From: Candidatus Peregrinibacteria bacterium
GTDB taxonomy: Bacteria > Patescibacteriota > Gracilibacteria > UBA1369
Reading direction: 5' to 3'
NCBI GenBank assembly: GCA_003153355.1
Contig: PLYH01000005.1
Coordinates: 1-47,210 of the forward strand
DNA length: 47,210 nucleotides
The first letter of the stretch is position 1, and each line of letters starts with the position of its first letter. Positions 15,798 through 27,053 of this stretch are shown in pieces. Under the pieces are notes generated by a model, which searched no databases, had not been told where the DNA came from, and saw nothing but the letters and a program-made list of their open reading frames with translations. The translations under genes and the position numbers were made by a program.

Positions 15798-17204
15798 TTA
15801 AGGAGAACCTTTCGGCCCGTTGAGCGAAGGAATGCTTGGTGCGGGCTTTGATGCACTTGGCGCTGGTGAAGGCGCTGGTGCGGATGCCGCCGGAACCCGT
15901 CTGACTTTTTTTGGAGCAGAAGTTTGCTGCGAAGGCGTCGATTGCTGAGTTAAGGAAGCATCTACCGGGCAATGGAGCATGTAGTAATTTTTGCTGAAGA
16001 GTTGATCAGGACTCAGAGAATTCAAATCAACCTGTGTGCCGTCCTGCTGCGTATATGTGGCGGCAAGCTGTTGAGATTGCTGGCTTGCTGCTTGTTGTGA
16101 TAATGAAGCGGAAGGACTTCCGGTATTTTCTCCCTGCAATAGCATGCTGGAAATGCCCTGTTGAGTAGAAGTCCCAGGGGTAGCGGTTTTCGCATACGCC
16201 GCTTTCAAATTTTCACAAAGATTTTGGATGGTATAGCAGGTGCTGTTGTTTCCTAAATCTTCTGAAATTGTAGACTGTTCGTCTTTCAGAGTCTGCATCA
16301 TCGCTGGCGTTGTTTGCGGGTCATTTCCTGCTTTAACTAAAAGATCATTAAGAAACAGCAGCTGCCATTTCATCGAATCGCAGGTCGGAAGCGAACGTCC
16401 GCAGGTTTTATCCTGGGATTTTTGAACGACCAGCTGGAAATATTGATCCCAAGTATGATTCTGCTGAGCCTGTGAGATTTGATCGTCAAACACCGAACAC
16501 GGCGTACAGTTGTTCTGCTGGGCGAGACCCTGGAGTTGTGTTTTCAGCGTAATATCTGCGGGGTCATTGCTTTCCCCAAGTTTTAAAATTTGAGCGCTTA
16601 ACTGCTCGCAGGTCGTACATTGAGCCTGGGCAAATCCTGCAACCGGCTGAGCATAAGCGCCAGGAATCGTCATTTCAAAATAGTTGTTGTCCAGATCACA
16701 TCCACAACGATTGCTCACCGGATCCATGACCTGACCAACCGGACAAGCATTCAGGGCCATTTGAGAGAAATTCGAAGTATCGATCTGTTGAGATGCATCA
16801 CTGGCGGTTTGAGAAGAGGCCTGCTCGCTGCTTTGAACAGTCGAAGCTTCGGTCGCTGCTCCATAGAGCGGCTGATTTTGCGGCTGGCCGTTGAAGACTC
16901 CGCTAAAATAGAGTCCGGCCGCTCCTCCGCCGATCACTAAAACACCGACGCCGGCCAAAATCCATTTCATCATTCCTGAACCGGTTTTTTTAGGTTTTTC
17001 GCCGCTGGGATAAGAGGGCATCACCGTTGGAGAAGCCTCCTGTTCGGTTTGAGGTTTTGTGAGCGGTTCAGTAACTGACGGCGGGGTTGGCATGGAAAAA
17101 CCCGGCTGAGTAATTATCGGTTCGGGCTTTACGTCCGGAGCAGCCATAGGCGGCTGTGCAGCAGGTTGAACCGGTTCTTGTTGAGGTTGCTGTTCGTTTT
17201 CCAT
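15798..17204 (-). CDS. Cys-rich membrane-anchored protein with Pro-rich ends
   Basis: I do not recognise a family. I start it at ATG 17204 (MENEQQP), because the longer frame from 17246 would begin upstream of the promoter. The 468-residue protein has a Pro/Gln-rich cytoplasmic N-terminus (1-75), one membrane helix (about 79-100) and a large external part with many Cys, including C-G-C, C-T-T-C and C-T-P-C (about 165-290), then a Gln/Ser-rich region and a Pro/Ala/Ser tail. The paired Cys suggest disulfides or a metal site. It follows the PKD cluster but is separated by a terminator and has its own promoter. Confidence 0.7.
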   Translation of the reverse strand: MENEQQPQQEPVQPAAQPPMAAPDVKPEPIITQPGFSMPTPPSVTEPLTKPQTEQEASPTVMPSYPSGEKPKKTGSGMMKWILAGVGVLVIGGGAAGLYFSGVFNGQPQNQPLYGAATEASTVQSSEQASSQTASDASQQIDTSNFSQMALNACPVGQVMDPVSNRCGCDLDNNYFEMTIPGAYAQPVAGFAQAQCTTCEQLSAQILKLGESNDPADITLKTQLQGLAQQNNCTPCSVFDDQISQAQQNHTWDQYFQLVVQKSQDKTCGRSLPTCDSMKWQLLFLNDLLVKAGNDPQTTPAMMQTLKDEQSTISEDLGNNSTCYTIQNLCENLKAAYAKTATPGTSTQQGISSMLLQGENTGSPSASLSQQAASQQSQQLAATYTQQDGTQVDLNSLSPDQLFSKNYYMLHCPVDASLTQQSTPSQQTSAPKKVRRVPAASAPAPSPAPSASKPAPSIPSLNGPKGSP

Positions 17205-17234
17205 GCTTTTTTGTTTAATTTTTATTATCCAGAA

Positions 17235-17263
17235 ATTATAGCACAAAATTTGCTTTTTATCAA
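17235..17263 (-). promoter_or_regulatory. Promoter of the Cys-rich protein gene
   Basis: On the minus strand TTGATA (17263-17258), 17 bases, then TATAAT (17240-17235) preceded by TGC as an extended -10. Transcription would begin near 17228, 24 bases before ATG 17204, which rules out the upstream ATG at 17246. Confidence 0.8.
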
Positions 17264-17436: not shown

Positions 17437-19881
17437 TTAAGGGCTAACAGCACCCGTAGCTAAGATATTCATTGTGAAGTCGTCAACGACGTTTTGATTG
17501 TCAGCTACTTCCAATTTTACTACGTAATTGCCGGGATTGGTAAAGGTATGGGTCGGTTTGCGGGTTCTTGAGGTTTGACCGTCTCCAAAATCCCAACTGT
17601 ATTTCGCAATCGTTCCTGTAGAACAATGCGGATCGAAATCAACGGTGAGAGGAGCTGCACCTTGTGTTGTACTGGCTTCAAAGCAGGCTTTGAGTGGAAC
17701 CGGGCGAATATTAATCGGGATGCTTGCGGTTGAAGTTGAGCCATCTGAAGCCGTAGCTGTAACTTTGGCCGTAAAAGTACCGATCTGAGTATATTGGTAG
17801 GTCACTTGTGAAGCATCGATGCGTTTTGGCGTACCGTCTCCGAAATCCCATTGATAGCTTACGATCTGGCCGGTTGGATAGCTTGAACCTGAAGCATCAA
17901 AAGTTACAGTCAATGGAACGACCCCGTCAGCCGGCGTTGCTGTGATGCGGGACTGTAAACCTTGAGCGGCTACTTTTACCACCATTATTTGCGATCCGGT
18001 TTTATTCTGATCGTCGTAAACCGTCAACGTTGCGTTGTATGTTCCGGCCGTATTATAAACATATTGAACTTGTTTGCCTGCAGCGTCGATTTTACCGTCT
18101 CCGTCAAAATCCCACTTATAATCAACGATGGTGCCGTTCTGTTCCTTACTCGGAGAACCGTCAAAATTCACCGTGAACGGAACCGTTCCACTGATGAATC
18201 CGTCTCCGGCTTTTGCTTCCGGCGGAACCGTGGTGAAGGCCGCGATCGGAGCGCCGACAGGATTTTCTACAGTAATCTTCTGGGTAATGTTTCCCTGTCC
18301 GCCTTTATCATCGGTTACGGTCAAACTTACGACATAATCGCCGGCGGCTTTATAAGTATGTGTTGCCGTACGGGTACTTGCCTGAGGACTTTGATCGCCA
18401 AAATCCCATGAGTACGTGGTGATTTTTCCGACCGGACTTGTGGATTGATCGCCAGCGAAAGTGTATTGCGTGCCCGCCCAGTAATGACCGTCATCGGTAG
18501 GAATACTGATGACCGCTGTCGGAAGATTCGGACCCTGGACGGTAATTTGTTTTGATACAATGGCAAAATTACCGGTGTTATCAGTAACGCGGAGATTCAC
18601 CGTATAGTTTCCGACTTGATCAAAGGTGTGACTGATTTTTACTCCCGTACCGCCTTTAAAGAGATTGGTATTATCGAAATCCCATTCGTAGGATTGAATT
18701 TGTCCTGCAGGAGCTGTTGAATTCGAAGCATCAAAATTTACGGCGAGCGGAGCCGGTCCGGTATCGGGATTGGCCGTAAAGTCCGCATTGATTTTGACGT
18801 TTGAAATGGTCACGATATCCGCAAAGCTCTGGGTTGTTTCCTGACCAGAAGTGATGTCTTTTAAGTTTACGGTTACCTTTACGTCATAACGTCCGTTATT
18901 TTTTCCAAGACTGGTATAGGTATCCGAAGGCGATTGGACTGTTGAAGTATTGCCGTCTCCAAAATCCCATAAGAATGATAAAATTTCATATTTTTTAGTG
19001 TCGATCGGCAGCTTGGTTCCATCGAATTTAATCGTGACGGGTGCGGTTAAGTTCAGTGTTACCGCCGGATCGGTGACGATGCCAATCTGCTGCGTTGAGG
19101 TTGGAGCAATGACTTTTTTGGAACTGAGGAAAAGATAAATACCCACCCAGATGAAGACCAAAAAGACGAGCATCAAACCTGAAGCTCCGGCGAGGGTCAA
19201 TCCCCGCTTTCGTGAATCTTTATCATCCTTGCGCGCCATTGCTGCGCGGAAAATTCCGACGACTGCGATAATGAAAAGAATGATCGAGAAGAATCCAAAA
19301 ATCACATTCACCAGCGTGATGAGCGAATTGATGAAGCTGGCGGTATCAAGACCGAGTGATTGTGCTAAAGCGTTGCTGCCGTTCGCGGAAGTCTGACTGA
19401 CGAAGAGCAATACAAAAAGTACGAAAAGCAAAATTGAACAGCCGAAACATCCGAGCGTCCAATATAAAAGACGGCGCGGATTCGGCGGTTTGCGACCGGC
19501 TAACGGTTGCTGAGGTCCACGCATACCTGGCTGCATTTGCTGTCCCGGACGCATTTGTTGTCCCTGCATCGGCATCTGGCCCGGACGCATTTGCTGCTGA
19601 TACATTTGCTGCTGCGGCATCTGGGGCTGAACCTGCTGAACTGGACGCATGTTTCCCTGCTGCATCTGATTCGGCACTTGCGCCTGCTGTTGCTGTGGCA
19701 TTTGTTGCATTCCAGGCTGCACCTGTTGAACAGGTCTCTGCATTTGCCCAGGAGCCTGCTGAGGTTGCGCGGGTACACCAATGTTCACCTGCACTTGCGG
19801 CTGCTGCTGAGGCTGCATCCCCGGTTGTTGTGGAACCGGGCTGCCCGAATTATTCGGATTTTGCGGATTTGTTTCTGGCAT
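17437..19881 (-). CDS. Membrane-anchored protein with six PKD domains
   Basis: The 814-residue protein begins with a Gln/Pro/Met-rich cytoplasmic stretch (1-130), then three membrane helices (about 139-162, 185-212, 228-252) and six PKD domains (about 280-810), recognisable by the repeated Y-x-W-D-F-G-D-G and H-T-[FY] ... G-x-Y-x-V-x-L-x-V-x-D core. PKD domains are beta-sandwiches used in surface stalks and binding proteins. Helices 2 and 3 with the loop ARKDDKDSRKRG resemble a degenerate copy of the VirB2-like hairpin in the upstream genes. The fourth PKD has a Ca-type loop (DFDGDGKID). Its start overlaps the end of the giant PKD gene by 32 bases. Confidence 0.85.
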   Translation of the reverse strand: MPETNPQNPNNSGSPVPQQPGMQPQQQPQVQVNIGVPAQPQQAPGQMQRPVQQVQPGMQQMPQQQQAQVPNQMQQGNMRPVQQVQPQMPQQQMYQQQMRPGQMPMQGQQMRPGQQMQPGMRGPQQPLAGRKPPNPRRLLYWTLGCFGCSILLFVLFVLLFVSQTSANGSNALAQSLGLDTASFINSLITLVNVIFGFFSIILFIIAVVGIFRAAMARKDDKDSRKRGLTLAGASGLMLVFLVFIWVGIYLFLSSKKVIAPTSTQQIGIVTDPAVTLNLTAPVTIKFDGTKLPIDTKKYEILSFLWDFGDGNTSTVQSPSDTYTSLGKNNGRYDVKVTVNLKDITSGQETTQSFADIVTISNVKINADFTANPDTGPAPLAVNFDASNSTAPAGQIQSYEWDFDNTNLFKGGTGVKISHTFDQVGNYTVNLRVTDNTGNFAIVSKQITVQGPNLPTAVISIPTDDGHYWAGTQYTFAGDQSTSPVGKITTYSWDFGDQSPQASTRTATHTYKAAGDYVVSLTVTDDKGGQGNITQKITVENPVGAPIAAFTTVPPEAKAGDGFISGTVPFTVNFDGSPSKEQNGTIVDYKWDFDGDGKIDAAGKQVQYVYNTAGTYNATLTVYDDQNKTGSQIMVVKVAAQGLQSRITATPADGVVPLTVTFDASGSSYPTGQIVSYQWDFGDGTPKRIDASQVTYQYTQIGTFTAKVTATASDGSTSTASIPINIRPVPLKACFEASTTQGAAPLTVDFDPHCSTGTIAKYSWDFGDGQTSRTRKPTHTFTNPGNYVVKLEVADNQNVVDDFTMNILATGAVSP

Positions 19882-22800
19882 GTTTCTTTTTGTTTAAAGT
19901 ACTTATAATAAATATACCAAAACCCAGCATAGATACAAGCAGGAGCTGCCAATCTACCACTTCATAACCGGCGAGCACGAAAGCGCTCAACTGGTTGTTG
20001 GACGACCCTTTTGGGCTATTTGAAGCCAAAGGAATGCTTCCTGTTTTCGTTCCGCTGCCTGACGGAGGAGGAACCGGCGCCGGATCAAAAATAATGGCTT
20101 TATCAACCGTTGATGTTTTTCCGGCGGTATCCGTAACTGTGAGCCGAACCGTGTCGGTGCCGTAACTGCGGAAAAAGGTTGTTGTCCAAGTTCCGGCTTT
20201 GTTGGCTTTATAATCGGCGTCGTCAGACGTATTTCCGTCACCGTCGGAATCGTAATAAATATTTTTGTCGATCGCATATGTTGCTATGTTTCCGGTTGAA
20301 CCGGAGAAATCAAAAGTCACATTTTCGCTGTCTCCCTGGAGATGGATTTTATTATCGGAAACGCTTGTTGCCGGTGTACTGGTAAGTTTTGCCTGTAATG
20401 GAACGCCCGGTGTCTGCTGCTGAGTTTGCGGTGCAGCAACTGCAGGAGCTTTCACATTCACAAAATTGGTCACTGAATTGGTATTGCCCTGGTCATCGGT
20501 CACCGTGAGTTTTGCGCGGTAAATTCCGTAATCAGAATATTGGAATGTCGGGTTTTGCGATGTTGACTGAACATCATTGTCTTTAATGCCGTCTCCGTTT
20601 GCGTCGGTGTTCACATCAAAATCCCAGGCATAGGAAGCGAGGGTCGCTCCGTTTGCTGCATCAGCCGTTGAATTGCTCGTAAACTGAATATTTTTACTGT
20701 CGAGTTGAGTCGAAGTAAATGCAGCAGCCGGCGGACCGGATTTAGAATCAACGTAAACCGTCACCGGATCGGAAATGGATTCTGCGCCGTTGTTGTCGCG
20801 GACCTTTAAACGAACTTTGTAGCCGTCCTTATTCGCCTTAGTATAAGTGAAACTTGTGTTGGCTTTATCGTACGTTGTGTCTCCGGGATTGGTATAACCC
20901 GTGCCGTCAAAATTCCACATGAAACTTACAATTTTACCGTCTTTATCCGGATCCATTGAACTTGAACTGAAGTTCACGCTGTCTCCCACATTAATAGAGG
21001 TATGATCAACGCTGAATTTTGCAATCGGAGCTTTGTTCGGACCGTTCACAACGTCCAGACTTGGAATGACCGCATCGTTCAAACTTGATGTCGGATCCGT
21101 TGATGTCAATCCGGTTGAATCGAATTTATCTCCATCGTTATCCGTAGCAATGACGCCGAATTTATAGGTTTTTTTGTCGCCTTCCACTCCGTTTGTTCCA
21201 ACGGTTAACGTTGTGGTTGGATTTTGAGTAATCTGTACGCCAAGCTGGGTGTTCGGATCACTGATGTCGTAGTACCACCATTTATAGCTGACGATTTTTC
21301 CGTCGGGATCGGTTGCTCCAAGAGCGGACAAATTCACCTGGACCGGAGTCGTTAAATTGTTGCCGACAGGAATTGCGCTGATGCCGCTTATCACGGGAGG
21401 CAAGCGTTTAATTGTTATGGTTATCGGAGTCGATGCCGTTTTTGTCGCATCATCAGCACTGGTTACCGTGAGTTTCACCGTAAAGTCTTTTGATTTGGCG
21501 TCAGCGATATCTTTATAAGTGTGCGTGTCATTTTTCTTGGAACTCAACTGTCCGTCACCAAAATCCCAGCTATAGTTCAAGTTGCGGCCAGTGCCGTCGG
21601 TATTTAAAGATTTGCTGGCGTCAAAAGTGAATGTCGTCGTACGATTTCCCACGATCGGATTTGTCGTATCTCCAATGTTTTCGCCGTCTTCATTCACGGC
21701 AATTGCGGCAATCGGTTCACCGGCTGCGCCGATGAAAACCTGGCGATAGGTTGCGTTGCCGTTATCCTGCGCATCGTACACGGTGAGTTTGGCTTTGTAA
21801 GCACCTGCTTTTGTATAGGTATGCGTTGGGATGGTTGCGGTTGCACCACCTGAAGGCGCAGGAGTTGGCACTCCAGCGACAATGGTTCCGGTTTCTTTTC
21901 CGCCATCGCCTGTTTCAATCTGGTAACCAACGCCGTTTTCACTGTAGACTTTAAACTGAATGTCAGCACTGCCGGTGCTGCTGAGCTGTGCGGTAAGCGG
22001 AGACCCGTCATCGCTCCAGCCAACATCAAGATCGTTATCAACAGTGATGGCCTGTTCCTGTGAAATGCTGTTTCCAACATCAGCCGGATCATCCTGAACA
22101 TCCAACGTTACGGTGTATTTACCTTTCTTGAATTTGAATTTCAGACGGCTGTTGTCGGCGCTGAATCCTCCGGTTCCTTCACTGCCCAAACTTGTACAAT
22201 CGGTGCCGTTGTCGTTTTTACCGTTATCATCGGCAAAACCTGAACCAGTGGTGTTTGGTTTGAAATAGAAACATGTGCCCGGTGCAGAATTGACATCCCA
22301 TTTATACGTCATGGTTTGTCCCGCAGTCATGTCGGGATCGAAACTGCCGCTGCCATCGAGAACATAAACATTCGGATGAGTCGGATCACTGTTCGTGTAA
22401 GTAAAGTGACCGACTGGAGGTTTTGATTTGATCGTCACCCCGACGCTTGTATTTGCCGGCGTTGTGGAAGTGGCATTGGCTACGGCCAAGCCAACGTTGT
22501 AAGTTCCCGGAGCAGCAAACGTATATTTGAACGAATCCGAAGTTGAACTTGGTACCACGAAGTCTGCAGGGGCTTTCCCGGATTTATCTGTAAGTGTCCA
22601 ATCATAATTTGTGATCGGTCCAGCATCACTGGCCGAAAGCGAATCGAATTGAAGCTGGTCGCCAAGCTGCGCCACTTGTCCCGGTGTCGCCTGGACTCTT
22701 GCCGCGAGCGAACCGACGGAAACGTTGAAGATCTTATAATCAGTCACGCCGTGGTCATCGGTGATTTGCAGGGTTACTAAATAGGTTCCGTTTTGATTGT

Positions 22801-24760
22801 ATTTAACGTTCGGACTTAAAAGGTTTGTATCCGCTCCGGTTCCTTTAATAGTATTACTTGGATTGGTTTTATCACCAAAGTCCCATTGGATTTGGACCTT
22901 TTTGGCTATGGTTGAATCTGTGATTGCAGTATTGTCGGTTTGTCCCACCTGAGTTTTACTGATATCAAATCCGATTCCGGCTTTCGATTCCGTTAAGGTT
23001 ACGGGCAATTCGCTGCTGTTAAACACCAGTGCGCCGTTGCTGCTGTATTGCATCAAGTGAATCGCCGATGTTTGATCAATGATGGTTGCATCCATATTAA
23101 TGTGAGCAACTGCAGGGTGCACTATAATAGTCTGATATGCTGCTCCGTCGGCAGGTTGTACTTCACCATTTGCCGCATCAGCCTTCGGTGGTTTTACTAA
23201 AAGTTTTACAACGTAGGTTCCCGGTTGACTAAAGATATGTGTTGCCGTTGCTCCATTTGCAGACTTGTCTGTTGAACTTGCATCGCCAAAATCCCAAAGA
23301 TAACCTCCGCCAGGAGCTGAAGCGGGATCTGAGGTCGCCGTAACGACGGCACTCGGATCAATAGTGTGGTTGTTCGGATCAAGAGACTTGAGACCGTCCA
23401 AACTTACCGGCAACGGTGCGTTGCCTTCGGTTTTGTCAGCGGTAATAACAGTGTATTCAAACTGAAGATTTTTCACGAGGTCATACAGAGCGCTCATGTC
23501 GTTCACGATTTTAAGAACAGCGGCGTTATCGACGGAGGCCGGACTCGTGAGCTGATATGCTCCGTTTTGCGCAAAGGCCACGTCTGCAAAAAGTTTTTCA
23601 AGATGCAATGCCAGCGGAACTTCAGCAATCGGTGACTTCAAACTTGAGACTAAACCTCCGAAATCTGTGAATACTGTTTTAAATCCTGTTGTAACGTCCG
23701 GAGAAATTCCTCCGCCGCTTTGGATTTGTTTGTAAAGATTCGTAAGGTCGGTGTTTCCTTTGGCCACAGCCTGTGCAAAATCTTCTCCATTGGCTTTTGG
23801 AAGATCGCCACTTGCACCGAACTCGTTAGTGATCGTGGTATTGAAGTCGCTATAGGAAACACTCGGAATATGTGCCAGAAAACAGAAAGGAACAAAAACC
23901 GTACAATAAACATTGTCCTTGTTGACTCCGCCTGATGTTGACAGGTCGGTAATCGCTTGATCCGATGCGTTGATATATGTGGCAAAAACAGCATTGTCCT
24001 TCTGAGCTACTTCGGCAACCTGGCTCAATGCCCCCGCTTTTCCTATAATATCTTGAATCATCGTCTGCTTTTGTTGCAGAATATTTTTTAGATCTGTCGG
24101 GCTGGTGATGGTCTGAGCAAAATCCACGTTTACCAATGTTGCCAAATCCGTATTAATTTCTGAATAGTTTTGGTATGCCGTAACAAAATCACGAGCAATT
24201 GTTTGAACTACGGTCCCGGCGTAAGCAAAGAGTGCGGCACGGCGGGCGTTTTGATCCGCTGCAGTTGCACCCGGCGCTGAACCGTTGGTGGCGCTTTGGT
24301 CACTTCCTCCTCCGGCCAAAAGAATCGTGTTCACTAAAGCGAACGAAGACAAAATGATCAAAATACCGATAACGGCGTAAGTTAATGCTTTTTTACCTTT
24401 ACCGGCCTGTTCTTCGTTACCCGCAGCTGTTACATACAAAAACCCTCCGTAAATCACTACCACTACGGCAATAATCCCAAGGAAACCCAGGGCAAAATTG
24501 ACGACGTTTTTAATGTACTGACGGAGATCCTGGTTTGCCGCCAAGCCTGCGCCATATTGTCCAGCCTGCGGAGTAGAAAGAGTTCCGCTGAACTGCGTGA
24601 AGCTGGTGGTGGCTGTTCCGCAGGAAAAGAAGCCTCCCGTACTTTGGGCAATGCTGCCGCAAAGATCCGCGGATGCAAAACTTGGCAGACAGAGGGCCAA
24701 AAATGTTATGAGTCCAAGCGCAAGTGCTTGCGCTTTTTGTTTGAGGTTGGTGGTAACCAT
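19850..24760 (-). CDS. Giant surface protein: VirB2-like hairpin plus about ten PKD-like domains
   Basis: The 1636-residue protein has a signal peptide (about 1-31), a TrbC/VirB2-like membrane hairpin (about 83-149) with loop Y-V-T-A-A-G-N-E-E (GNEE at 114-117) and K-G-K-K, a mostly helical region (about 165-440), roughly ten PKD/Ig-like domains (about 445-1560), and a C-terminal membrane helix with a basic tail (KKKHARNKSAKSE). Asp-rich loops such as DSDGDGNTSDD and DANGDGIKDND near the C-terminus look like calcium sites. It would be fixed in the membrane at both ends, with a long external part looping out. The hairpin links it to the two upstream genes. No enzyme domain is visible. Confidence 0.85.
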   Translation of the reverse strand: MVTTNLKQKAQALALGLITFLALCLPSFASADLCGSIAQSTGGFFSCGTATTSFTQFSGTLSTPQAGQYGAGLAANQDLRQYIKNVVNFALGFLGIIAVVVVIYGGFLYVTAAGNEEQAGKGKKALTYAVIGILIILSSFALVNTILLAGGGSDQSATNGSAPGATAADQNARRAALFAYAGTVVQTIARDFVTAYQNYSEINTDLATLVNVDFAQTITSPTDLKNILQQKQTMIQDIIGKAGALSQVAEVAQKDNAVFATYINASDQAITDLSTSGGVNKDNVYCTVFVPFCFLAHIPSVSYSDFNTTITNEFGASGDLPKANGEDFAQAVAKGNTDLTNLYKQIQSGGGISPDVTTGFKTVFTDFGGLVSSLKSPIAEVPLALHLEKLFADVAFAQNGAYQLTSPASVDNAAVLKIVNDMSALYDLVKNLQFEYTVITADKTEGNAPLPVSLDGLKSLDPNNHTIDPSAVVTATSDPASAPGGGYLWDFGDASSTDKSANGATATHIFSQPGTYVVKLLVKPPKADAANGEVQPADGAAYQTIIVHPAVAHINMDATIIDQTSAIHLMQYSSNGALVFNSSELPVTLTESKAGIGFDISKTQVGQTDNTAITDSTIAKKVQIQWDFGDKTNPSNTIKGTGADTNLLSPNVKYNQNGTYLVTLQITDDHGVTDYKIFNVSVGSLAARVQATPGQVAQLGDQLQFDSLSASDAGPITNYDWTLTDKSGKAPADFVVPSSTSDSFKYTFAAPGTYNVGLAVANATSTTPANTSVGVTIKSKPPVGHFTYTNSDPTHPNVYVLDGSGSFDPDMTAGQTMTYKWDVNSAPGTCFYFKPNTTGSGFADDNGKNDNGTDCTSLGSEGTGGFSADNSRLKFKFKKGKYTVTLDVQDDPADVGNSISQEQAITVDNDLDVGWSDDGSPLTAQLSSTGSADIQFKVYSENGVGYQIETGDGGKETGTIVAGVPTPAPSGGATATIPTHTYTKAGAYKAKLTVYDAQDNGNATYRQVFIGAAGEPIAAIAVNEDGENIGDTTNPIVGNRTTTFTFDASKSLNTDGTGRNLNYSWDFGDGQLSSKKNDTHTYKDIADAKSKDFTVKLTVTSADDATKTASTPITITIKRLPPVISGISAIPVGNNLTTPVQVNLSALGATDPDGKIVSYKWWYYDISDPNTQLGVQITQNPTTTLTVGTNGVEGDKKTYKFGVIATDNDGDKFDSTGLTSTDPTSSLNDAVIPSLDVVNGPNKAPIAKFSVDHTSINVGDSVNFSSSSMDPDKDGKIVSFMWNFDGTGYTNPGDTTYDKANTSFTYTKANKDGYKVRLKVRDNNGAESISDPVTVYVDSKSGPPAAAFTSTQLDSKNIQFTSNSTADAANGATLASYAWDFDVNTDANGDGIKDNDVQSTSQNPTFQYSDYGIYRAKLTVTDDQGNTNSVTNFVNVKAPAVAAPQTQQQTPGVPLQAKLTSTPATSVSDNKIHLQGDSENVTFDFSGSTGNIATYAIDKNIYYDSDGDGNTSDDADYKANKAGTWTTTFFRSYGTDTVRLTVTDTAGKTSTVDKAIIFDPAPVPPPSGSGTKTGSIPLASNSPKGSSNNQLSAFVLAGYEVVDWQLLLVSMLGFGIFIISTLNKKKHARNKSAKSE

Positions 24761-24797: not shown

Positions 24798-24826
24798 ATT
24801 TTAGCACAAAACGGCTTACGGGCCAA
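24798..24826 (-). promoter_or_regulatory. Internal promoter before the giant PKD gene
   Basis: On the minus strand TTGGCC (24826-24821), 17 bases, then TAAAAT (24803-24798) preceded by TGC. It overlaps the end of the upstream gene and would start transcription about 30 bases before ATG 24760, allowing the PKD genes to be expressed apart from the hairpin genes. Confidence 0.5.
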
Positions 24827-25877
24827 CTTTACCGCTTGTGGCAAGTCCTGAAGGAGCAGCTGAACCCGGAGTTACCGTGGTTCCTCCTGTTGTACCCAGC
24901 TGATTTTCCAGTTTAACTGTTGTGTTGACGATCGCAAAAGCTCCCATGGCCAACAGTAAGCCGATGGTTGCTCCGATGATGACTTTTTTTGATTTCCCCG
25001 TTGATTCTTCGTTTCCAAATGAGGTCACATAAAGATATCCGGCATAGATGTACATACACCCGGCAATCGTCGTGATGAAGCCTGCAATAAAATTCGTGAT
25101 GTTCACAATGAGTAATTTTATTTTTTCGGCATCGGGGAGCTGAGTTCCCTGGTTCGGAAAAAGAACATCCTTTACTCCGTATTCAGCAACACCCACGAGC
25201 AATAACCCGATCACGGCATAGGTGATCTGGCGTTTGGCTTTTTCCATGGTTTCTTCATTTCCGCCGCTGGTGATGTAACGGAAACCGGCGATAACGATCA
25301 TTAAAATTGCAACCGCACCGGCAAAATATGCCATCATTTCATAAATACCCTTAATTTCCTGCGATCCGGTCTGGGCGGCCTGCTGGAGAGTTGACTGACT
25401 GCTGTAAATTTCGCCCTGTTGGCCGAAAAACACCAGCTGCACGAACTCAGTTGATGAGATAATAAGCACCAATCCGATGATGGCAAACGTGAGGTGCTGC
25501 TTTTGTTTGGTGGCTTCCTCTTCGCTTCCTTTTCCCGCCGTAATCAGGCGGATTCCGGAAATAATAATGGTTATGACCGCAACGGTTCCCATAATATATT
25601 TGATGTAGTCGATAGCATAATAGATGGCGCTGGTGATGGTTTTGGCGCCGGGTTCAATCGAAGAGTTGGCGTTGCCCTGGGTTTCGTAACTCGGGAGGCC
25701 TGAAGGATTGCCGGTGCAACGGATAATATCGCTGACACTCGTCGGGTTCTGCGGACAGGGTGTCGGAGCTTGAGCTTTCACCGCATCCGCAAACGTCAGC
25801 AATGAGCTTGCGATACAAATAAACAGCAAGAGCGGTGCAAGAAATTTTTTCCAGATTTTGATGAGTTGCTTTTTCAT
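24816..25877 (-). CDS. Triple TrbC/VirB2-like hairpin membrane protein (copy 2)
   Basis: The 353-residue protein has a signal peptide (about 1-35), a Cys-containing linker and three membrane hairpins (about 85-150, 177-240, 255-322). Each is helix, loop Y-[IV]-T-S-x-G-N-E-E with a following Lys-rich K-x-K-[KRQ], then helix starting A-x-I-G-L. The loop motif is GSEE at 117-120, GNEE at 206-209 and GNEE at 288-291. Single hairpins of this type occur in VirB2/TrbC pilins of type IV secretion; three in tandem in one chain is unusual. It lies 20 bases after the sister gene at 25898 and 55 bases before the giant PKD gene, so the three probably form one complex. Confidence 0.82.
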   Translation of the reverse strand: MKKQLIKIWKKFLAPLLLFICIASSLLTFADAVKAQAPTPCPQNPTSVSDIIRCTGNPSGLPSYETQGNANSSIEPGAKTITSAIYYAIDYIKYIMGTVAVITIIISGIRLITAGKGSEEEATKQKQHLTFAIIGLVLIISSTEFVQLVFFGQQGEIYSSQSTLQQAAQTGSQEIKGIYEMMAYFAGAVAILMIVIAGFRYITSGGNEETMEKAKRQITYAVIGLLLVGVAEYGVKDVLFPNQGTQLPDAEKIKLLIVNITNFIAGFITTIAGCMYIYAGYLYVTSFGNEESTGKSKKVIIGATIGLLLAMGAFAIVNTTVKLENQLGTTGGTTVTPGSAAPSGLATSGKVGP

Positions 25878-25897
25878 AATTTGATTTTTGTTTTCAT

Positions 25898-26944
25898 CTA
25901 TTGAGTGACTGTCTGGGTTCCGCTTCCTCCCGGCTGGAACTGTCCGGAAATAACCGTACTTACGATTGCGAATGCTCCGTACATGATTAAAATACCGACG
26001 ACAACCGCAAAAATAAGACGTTTTGCTTTCCCCTGCTTTTCTTCGTTTCCCGCTGAAGTGATGTACTGAAATGCGGCGTACAGGAGCATTAATATTGCGA
26101 CAGGAGTCGCGATGGTTACGACAAGATTCGTAAAGCCGGTGATTTCACTGACGCCTTGAGCTGCATTGATACTTGGAGCTGCTCCACCGACGCTTGGATA
26201 TTTACTCAAATCGATTTTATAGAAGACATTGGTTATGGCCGAATTTGCCATGATGATGAAAAGCAAACCAAGGATTCCGTAAAAAAGTGATTTTTTGTCT
26301 TCAGCAAGTTTTTCTTCGTTTCCGTTCGAAGTAATCAAACGTAAACCACTCCGGATCACCATGAACACCGCGATACTTCCGATAATGTACTGGATGAAAG
26401 TGATGATGAATTGCGTACGCTGATTAAAAAGCGTCGCGGAACGGATAATGGCATTTGGATTGTTTAAAAAGCCACCGGGCGTACATGGCATGTTGTTCAA
26501 ATCTTTTCCCGTAGACGGGCAGTACACGCTGAAAATTCTCACGACATCTCCTGAAAATCCAACGACAGCCAAACCGATGATGGCATAAATAATATTTCTT
26601 TTTTGAGTCGTATAGACCTCTTCGTTTCCCTGAGCGATGACCATTCTCACGCCGGAGTAGACCAGAAGTCCGACTGCAACCGCGCCGATGATGTAACGTA
26701 CGTTCAACACCACGGCCACGACCAAATTGTAAAAACGTTGGTCGGCGGTGGTGCCTGTCGTCGTAGGAAGACTGGCGTAAGGATTCGTGGTTCCCGTATC
26801 GCCCAGCGGCAAGAGGTTCGTAGTGCTTGTCGCATTCGGAGTCGGAGCAGGATCCGCATTGACGATCAAAACCGGTCCGGAAACACTCACGAGCACCGTC
26901 ATCATGAGGGCCAGGGCAACCAAAAATTGTTTGAGGGTTTTCAT
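25898..26944 (-). CDS. Triple TrbC/VirB2-like hairpin membrane protein (copy 1)
   Basis: The 348-residue protein has a signal peptide (about 1-30), a Thr/Pro-rich linker (31-68) and three membrane hairpins (about 72-138, 176-242, 268-334) with GNEE at 106-109, 208-211 and 299-302. Each loop continues with a basic K-[KR] and then the second helix. Two Cys (142 and 154) in the external segment between hairpins 1 and 2 may form a disulfide. It is the first gene of the minus-strand envelope cluster, with a strong promoter at 26976-27004. VirB2 pilins polymerise through such helices, so a pore or filament base is a possible role; no VirB4 or VirB6 gene is in the window. Confidence 0.82.
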   Translation of the reverse strand: MKTLKQFLVALALMMTVLVSVSGPVLIVNADPAPTPNATSTTNLLPLGDTGTTNPYASLPTTTGTTADQRFYNLVVAVVLNVRYIIGAVAVGLLVYSGVRMVIAQGNEEVYTTQKRNIIYAIIGLAVVGFSGDVVRIFSVYCPSTGKDLNNMPCTPGGFLNNPNAIIRSATLFNQRTQFIITFIQYIIGSIAVFMVIRSGLRLITSNGNEEKLAEDKKSLFYGILGLLFIIMANSAITNVFYKIDLSKYPSVGGAAPSINAAQGVSEITGFTNLVVTIATPVAILMLLYAAFQYITSAGNEEKQGKAKRLIFAVVVGILIMYGAFAIVSTVISGQFQPGGSGTQTVTQ

Positions 26945-26975: not shown

Positions 26976-27004
26976 ATTATAGCAGAAAAGGGCGTTTTTT
27001 GCAA
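26976..27004 (-). promoter_or_regulatory. Promoter of the hairpin/PKD envelope cluster
   Basis: On the minus strand TTGCAA (27004-26999), 17 bases, then TATAAT (26981-26976) preceded by TGC. This is among the best promoters in the window; transcription would start near 26969, 25 bases before the ATG at 26944. Confidence 0.8.
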
Positions 27005-27053
27005 AGGACCTTCATGTGTGCATGAGCAATGTGTTTTTTCCGCGAAAATTTTC

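Follow-up and report, generated by a model that had tools for sequence, protein, structure and literature searches.

Genes A and B, adjacent in a Candidatus Peregrinibacteria genome (G000; 1.46 Mb, 7 contigs), each encode a chain of three VirB2/TrbC-like pilin hairpins, and the six hairpins are fixed, specialised units across relatives. We put at about one half the probability that, in the order to which this genome belongs (UBA1369, class Gracilibacteria), the two proteins form an inner-membrane platform of fixed composition, made of concatenated pilin-fold units, to which the PKD proteins encoded by neighbouring genes C and D dock. The window analysed, the whole stretch of 47,210 nt, lies on contig C6; its relevant features are collected in Table 1.

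The original prediction of two adjacent genes with three TrbC/VirB2-like hairpins apiece was borne out. Both ORFs are present on the minus strand, and in a Pfam scan both products exceed the curated cut-offs for PF18895 (T4SS_pilin; 91.3 bits for B and 77.5 bits for A, cut-off 26.6) and PF04956 (TrbC/VIRB2; 50.3 for B and 29.7 for A, cut-off 27.9). The kinship with TrbC/VirB2, on which the prediction hinged, is thus upheld by profile comparison. All pilin matches were lost when the B sequence was reversed, so the match does not arise from composition alone. By hydropathy, A and B each have a signal peptide and six TM segments. The K/R density of the hairpin loops (0.167 and 0.177) is about twice that of the linkers (0.075 and 0.088), and the loops should therefore face the cytoplasm and the linkers the outside. 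Within the order, the linkers count as some of the less conserved regions; in family f1 certain linker residues are well conserved.

The loop pattern read at the outset, [YL]-[IV]-T-[SA]-x-G-N-E-E, is exact in A2, A3, B2 and B3, but A1 reads MVIAQGNEE and B1 reads LITAGKGSEE, one residue longer. The letters GNEE are not kept in the orthologous first and second hairpins, and we therefore rejected the motif as a defining feature; the conserved unit is the hairpin, not the tetrapeptide.

Table 1. Features of the A–D gene block and its flanks, in window coordinates.
Feature	Position	Strand	Description	Match or remark
Promoter-like site	26976..27005	-	TTGCAA-17-TATAAT, 5' of A	in gap to divergent secE; consensus match only
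Gene A	25898..26944	-	348 aa, signal peptide and three VirB2-like hairpins	PF18895 in three stretches, E 8e-22
Hairpin A1	26534..26719	-	residues 76-137, loop GNEE	custom hairpin HMM 66 bits
Hairpin A2	26222..26410	-	residues 179-241, loop GNEE	custom hairpin HMM 72 bits
Hairpin A3	25949..26143	-	residues 268-332, loop GNEE	custom hairpin HMM 70 bits
Gene B	24816..25877	-	353 aa, signal peptide and three VirB2-like hairpins	PF18895 in three stretches, E 4e-26; PF04956 E 3e-13
Hairpin B1	25428..25625	-	residues 85-150, loop GSEE	custom hairpin HMM 74 bits
Hairpin B2	25164..25355	-	residues 175-238, loop GNEE	custom hairpin HMM 84 bits
Hairpin B3	24921..25109	-	residues 257-319, loop GNEE	custom hairpin HMM 74 bits
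Gene C	19850..24760	-	1636 aa, signal peptide and single hairpin, some eight PKD domains, TM segment at the C terminus	next gene after B
Seventh hairpin (C1)	24320..24514	-	in C, residues 83-147, loop YVTAAGNEE	PF18895 E 3.3e-10; custom hairpin HMM 80 bits
Gene D	17437..19881	-	814 aa, six PKD domains, TM anchor and TM pair with charged loop	overlaps end of C
Divergent hairpin-like TM pair	19126..19305	-	in D, residues 193-252	layout shared by D orthologs
Gene E	15798..17246	-	482 aa, Cys-containing, own promoter-like site, downstream of D	no Pfam family over cut-off

The hairpin count is strict. Across 45 A–B loci (14 named families plus L044), 43 carry exactly 3+3 hairpins and two carry 4+4. 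The paired genes are adjacent and on the same strand, with spacings of -110 to +65 nt in the 43 3+3 pairs. The nearest neighbour of a hairpin from a different family occupied the same position in 31/43 (A1), 36/43 (A2), 39/43 (A3), 35/43 (B1), 41/43 (B2) and 36/43 (B3) cases, and in 17/17 for C1, the hairpin of gene C. When hairpins of the order were compared with those of the remaining class, the position matched in 54 of 84 cases, against a mean of 14.0 and a maximum of 30 in 10,000 permutations. Because such same-position matches lie far above chance, the six hairpins are distinct units with fixed places. A3, B3 and C1 are alike and resemble the single pilin L022:6343, A3 being the hairpin of A nearest to single pilins; A1, A2, B1 and B2 are the ones that have drifted far from these. 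The similarity of A3 and B3 would fit duplication of an ancestral triple gene, without proving it.

The genes are closely spaced, with gaps of 20 bp between A and B and 55 bp between B and C and a C/D overlap of 32 bp. The number of promoter-like sites found was close to the shuffle mean. Both the seventh hairpin, in C, and the divergent hairpin-like TM pair in D had been overlooked in the first reading. The custom hairpin HMM picks up the D pair in some orthologs only; the TM anchor and the charged-loop TM pair are retained in D orthologs. The C-terminal TM segment of C is absent from some orthologs. Gene E was considered as a further member of the unit and rejected, as no homologue was found adjoining D in relatives.

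Our survey of gene order found that the hairpin-hairpin-PKD arrangement recurs in relatives, as the original prediction required. The A-B-C-D block beside secE-nusG-rplK-rplA is kept in the family of this genome wherever contigs are long enough, in Candidatus Gracilibacteria (L044) and Candidatus Peregrinibacteria HGW-1 (L045), and in the eight further loci read from the order. Additional ORFs lie between A and secE at L088, L089 and L093. Family f15 has the block with extra genes (D was seen in L097 only, L096 ending in C), and in family f17 the A–B pair lies near D, with C apparently split. In families f13, f14, f16 and f19 the pair sits in other neighbourhoods, away from PKD genes. An FtsK gene lies downstream at the f16 loci L095 and L100, and the f16 genome G031 encodes a C-like hairpin-PKD protein on a separate contig. 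The suggestion that A and B serve as a base for PKD proteins is made plausible by the synteny, and in this order they probably do so. However, since the pair occurs without adjacent PKD genes in f13, f14, f16 and f19, this role is not the whole story. We also observed, directly ahead of C-like giant proteins, a protein of 307-340 aa with a C-terminal hairpin (L096:6065-7087, L097:8409-9425 and L165:8381-9304).

The pair is widespread in the class. A match was called strong at E < 1e-29 with the broad profile A5, a line that was set after viewing the table and that does not count hairpins. By hand count over 241 class genomes, strong matches occur in 183 of the 196 outside family f20 and in none of the 45 f20 genomes (best E 2.2e-26). 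In a second set of 380 genomes all 37 members of the class match, and 3 of the 343 others pass 1e-29 (G309, G311 and G393). The G309 match is a four-hairpin chain and that of G311 a two-hairpin chain, each within an array of single-hairpin genes. No 3+3 pair was seen outside the class among the 343 genomes searched with A5, the loci of G309 and G311 having been read. Family f20 is the sole sampled family with many genomes yet no strong triple-hairpin match; many of its VirB4 matches read through TGA. In family f38, four-hairpin chains lie in single-hairpin gene arrays near a gyrA-like gene (L129:1292-2536 and L130:3786-4880), apparently a separate case of hairpin concatenation.

VirB2 pilins are identical single hairpins that polymerise, and they are processed after export. 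A and B share with VirB2/TrbC pilins (PF04956, PF18895) the hairpin fold as judged by sequence, the signal peptide and the charged inside loop. They differ in carrying three hairpins per chain, in two chains per locus with specialised positions, whereas the pilins have a single hairpin per short chain; the pilins sit in a T4SS cluster with virB4, to which A–B is not linked. Passages from published work describe Patescibacteria VirB2 arrays of 2-11 pilin genes (PMC12102498) and an essential pilin array in the Saccharibacterium Ca. S. epibionticum (PMC10633639). In these arrays too, several VirB2-like hairpins are encoded together, but the passages mention no multi-hairpin chain, fixed 3+3 pair or PKD partner. 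A literature search covering titles, the starts of abstracts and passages found no publication on Patescibacteria pilin chains with more than one hairpin. Like the T4SS base protein VirB6/TrbL, A and B are predicted to be multi-TM components of the inner membrane; VirB6/TrbL belongs to PF04610, whereas A and B are made of pilin hairpins. No PF04610 match was found in the whole G000 genome, A and B included, nor when the two proteins were scanned with Pfam. TrbL_2 (PF19478) had no match in the genome, and none in controls either.

In the platform reading, A and B would each be a covalent trimer of the VirB2/TrbC pilin hairpin, the two co-assembling in the cytoplasmic membrane at fixed composition. 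Concatenation would set the neighbours of each hairpin, with each of the six positions specialised; a closed platform is then expected, not an open-ended filament, and the fixed number and position argue for a complex of set stoichiometry. C and D, the operon partners in this order, may dock into the platform through their own hairpin or hairpin-like segments, which is the simplest reading of why they carry them. Once docked, they would raise their PKD domains on the cell surface as long stalks for contact with cells. The fixed-size ring or pore originally proposed is supported in part: the fixed size agrees with the strict count of 3+3 and with the way each of the six hairpins keeps its position, but a ring, pore or base is conjectural, the AlphaFold models being of low confidence (mean pLDDT 47.7 for B, from a three-sequence alignment, and 36.2 for C residues 1-500). 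Searching PDB sequences with the alignment of B gave nothing useful (best E 0.13, FliL).

The absence of VirB4 from the window was confirmed. A VirB4 of the CD1110 family is encoded elsewhere in the genome, on a different contig from A–B (NF045971 match at G000:C2:24556-26220), the T4CP profile PF10412 (VirD4-like ATPases) passes its cut-off at three sites (C1:2650, C1:27154 and C7:40031), and the genome has nine genes for single-hairpin pilins, of which five form an array on C2. The view that the locus need not belong to a secretion system is weakened by the VirB4 and VirD4-like ATPases, though these are unlinked to it. The array of five single-hairpin pilin genes (L020:6025-8612; G000:C2, about 190.0-192.6 kb) lies near a T2SSE-family (PilT-like) ATPase gene and pseudopilin-like genes.

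These components make it conceivable, though unlikely, that A–B is the inner-membrane base (a VirB6-like role) or the pilus-initiation complex of the T4SS of Patescibacteria, acting together with the single-hairpin pilins and with VirB4 and VirD4-like ATPases encoded at unlinked sites; the PKD proteins would then be an add-on of particular lineages. The inventory of such genes in G000 speaks for this, as do the failure of PF04610 to detect a VirB6 in the genome and the near-universal presence of A–B in the class outside one family, independent of PKD neighbours. Passages of PMC12102498 report that VirB6 homologues are scarce in Microgenomatia and missing from Gracilibacteria. On the other hand, VirB4 is found in 229 of the 241 class genomes and hence also in most f20 genomes, which lack A–B. 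Where A–B and VirB4 share a contig they lie about 45 kb (G174), 49 kb (G132) and 215 kb (G115, a single-contig genome) apart, and A–B has no detected similarity to VirB6. A bolder proposal, which we rank lower still, combines the two functions: in this class the VirB6-type base of the T4SS would have been replaced by a closed ring of two covalent triple-pilin chains in fixed order, with hairpin-headed PKD host-contact stalks docked on it.

The drift of A1, A2, B1 and B2 away from single pilins, to which A3, B3 and C1 remain near, would also suit hairpins that act as membrane anchors only, A and B being ordinary six-TM proteins (channel, scaffold or insertase-like) of pilin descent that have lost pilin-type packing. 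We regard this as improbable. Against it, the custom hairpin HMM still gives each of the six hairpins 66-84 bits, and they retain charged inside loops. Least probable of all, in our estimate, is that A and B are pilin polyproteins, cleaved in their linkers once exported, and that the three different single-hairpin pilins set free polymerise as VirB2 does. The known processing of VirB2 is in keeping with such cleavage, as are the single-hairpin arrays in the same genome and the two- or four-hairpin proteins mixed with single ones elsewhere (L121, L122, L129, L130 and L166). Yet the linkers fall in narrow length ranges (medians 25-36 residues), some with a Cys pair and some with residues kept in f1, and a polyprotein would require neither a strict 3+3 count nor fixed positions.

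Under the platform reading, a class-wide pair with three specialised hairpins at fixed positions in each chain would amount to a naturally occurring concatemer, by which both the order and the number of subunits are set. It would also be a candidate for a membrane component that is missing in bacteria presumed to live on other cells, and the pair offers a clear marker in searches of uncultured Patescibacteria for surface or secretion machinery.

Hairpins also head surface proteins elsewhere, which speaks for the platform reading. Outside this class, pairs of neighbouring genes in Patescibacteria (L161:5221-17414, L162:2028-14370, L163:3817-14255, which runs to the contig end, and L164:2259-10578) encode a smaller protein of 667-853 aa and a larger one of 1916-3395 aa, both carrying a T4SS_pilin-like hairpin at the N terminus. 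Scans of two of these pairs showed Ig-like repeats after the hairpin, Big_5 and also TIG, rather than PKD, and no triple-hairpin pair was seen beside the genes in the stretches read. Given that such hairpin-headed, Ig-like giants are found in other classes, a hairpin at the head of a surface protein is a design that recurs.
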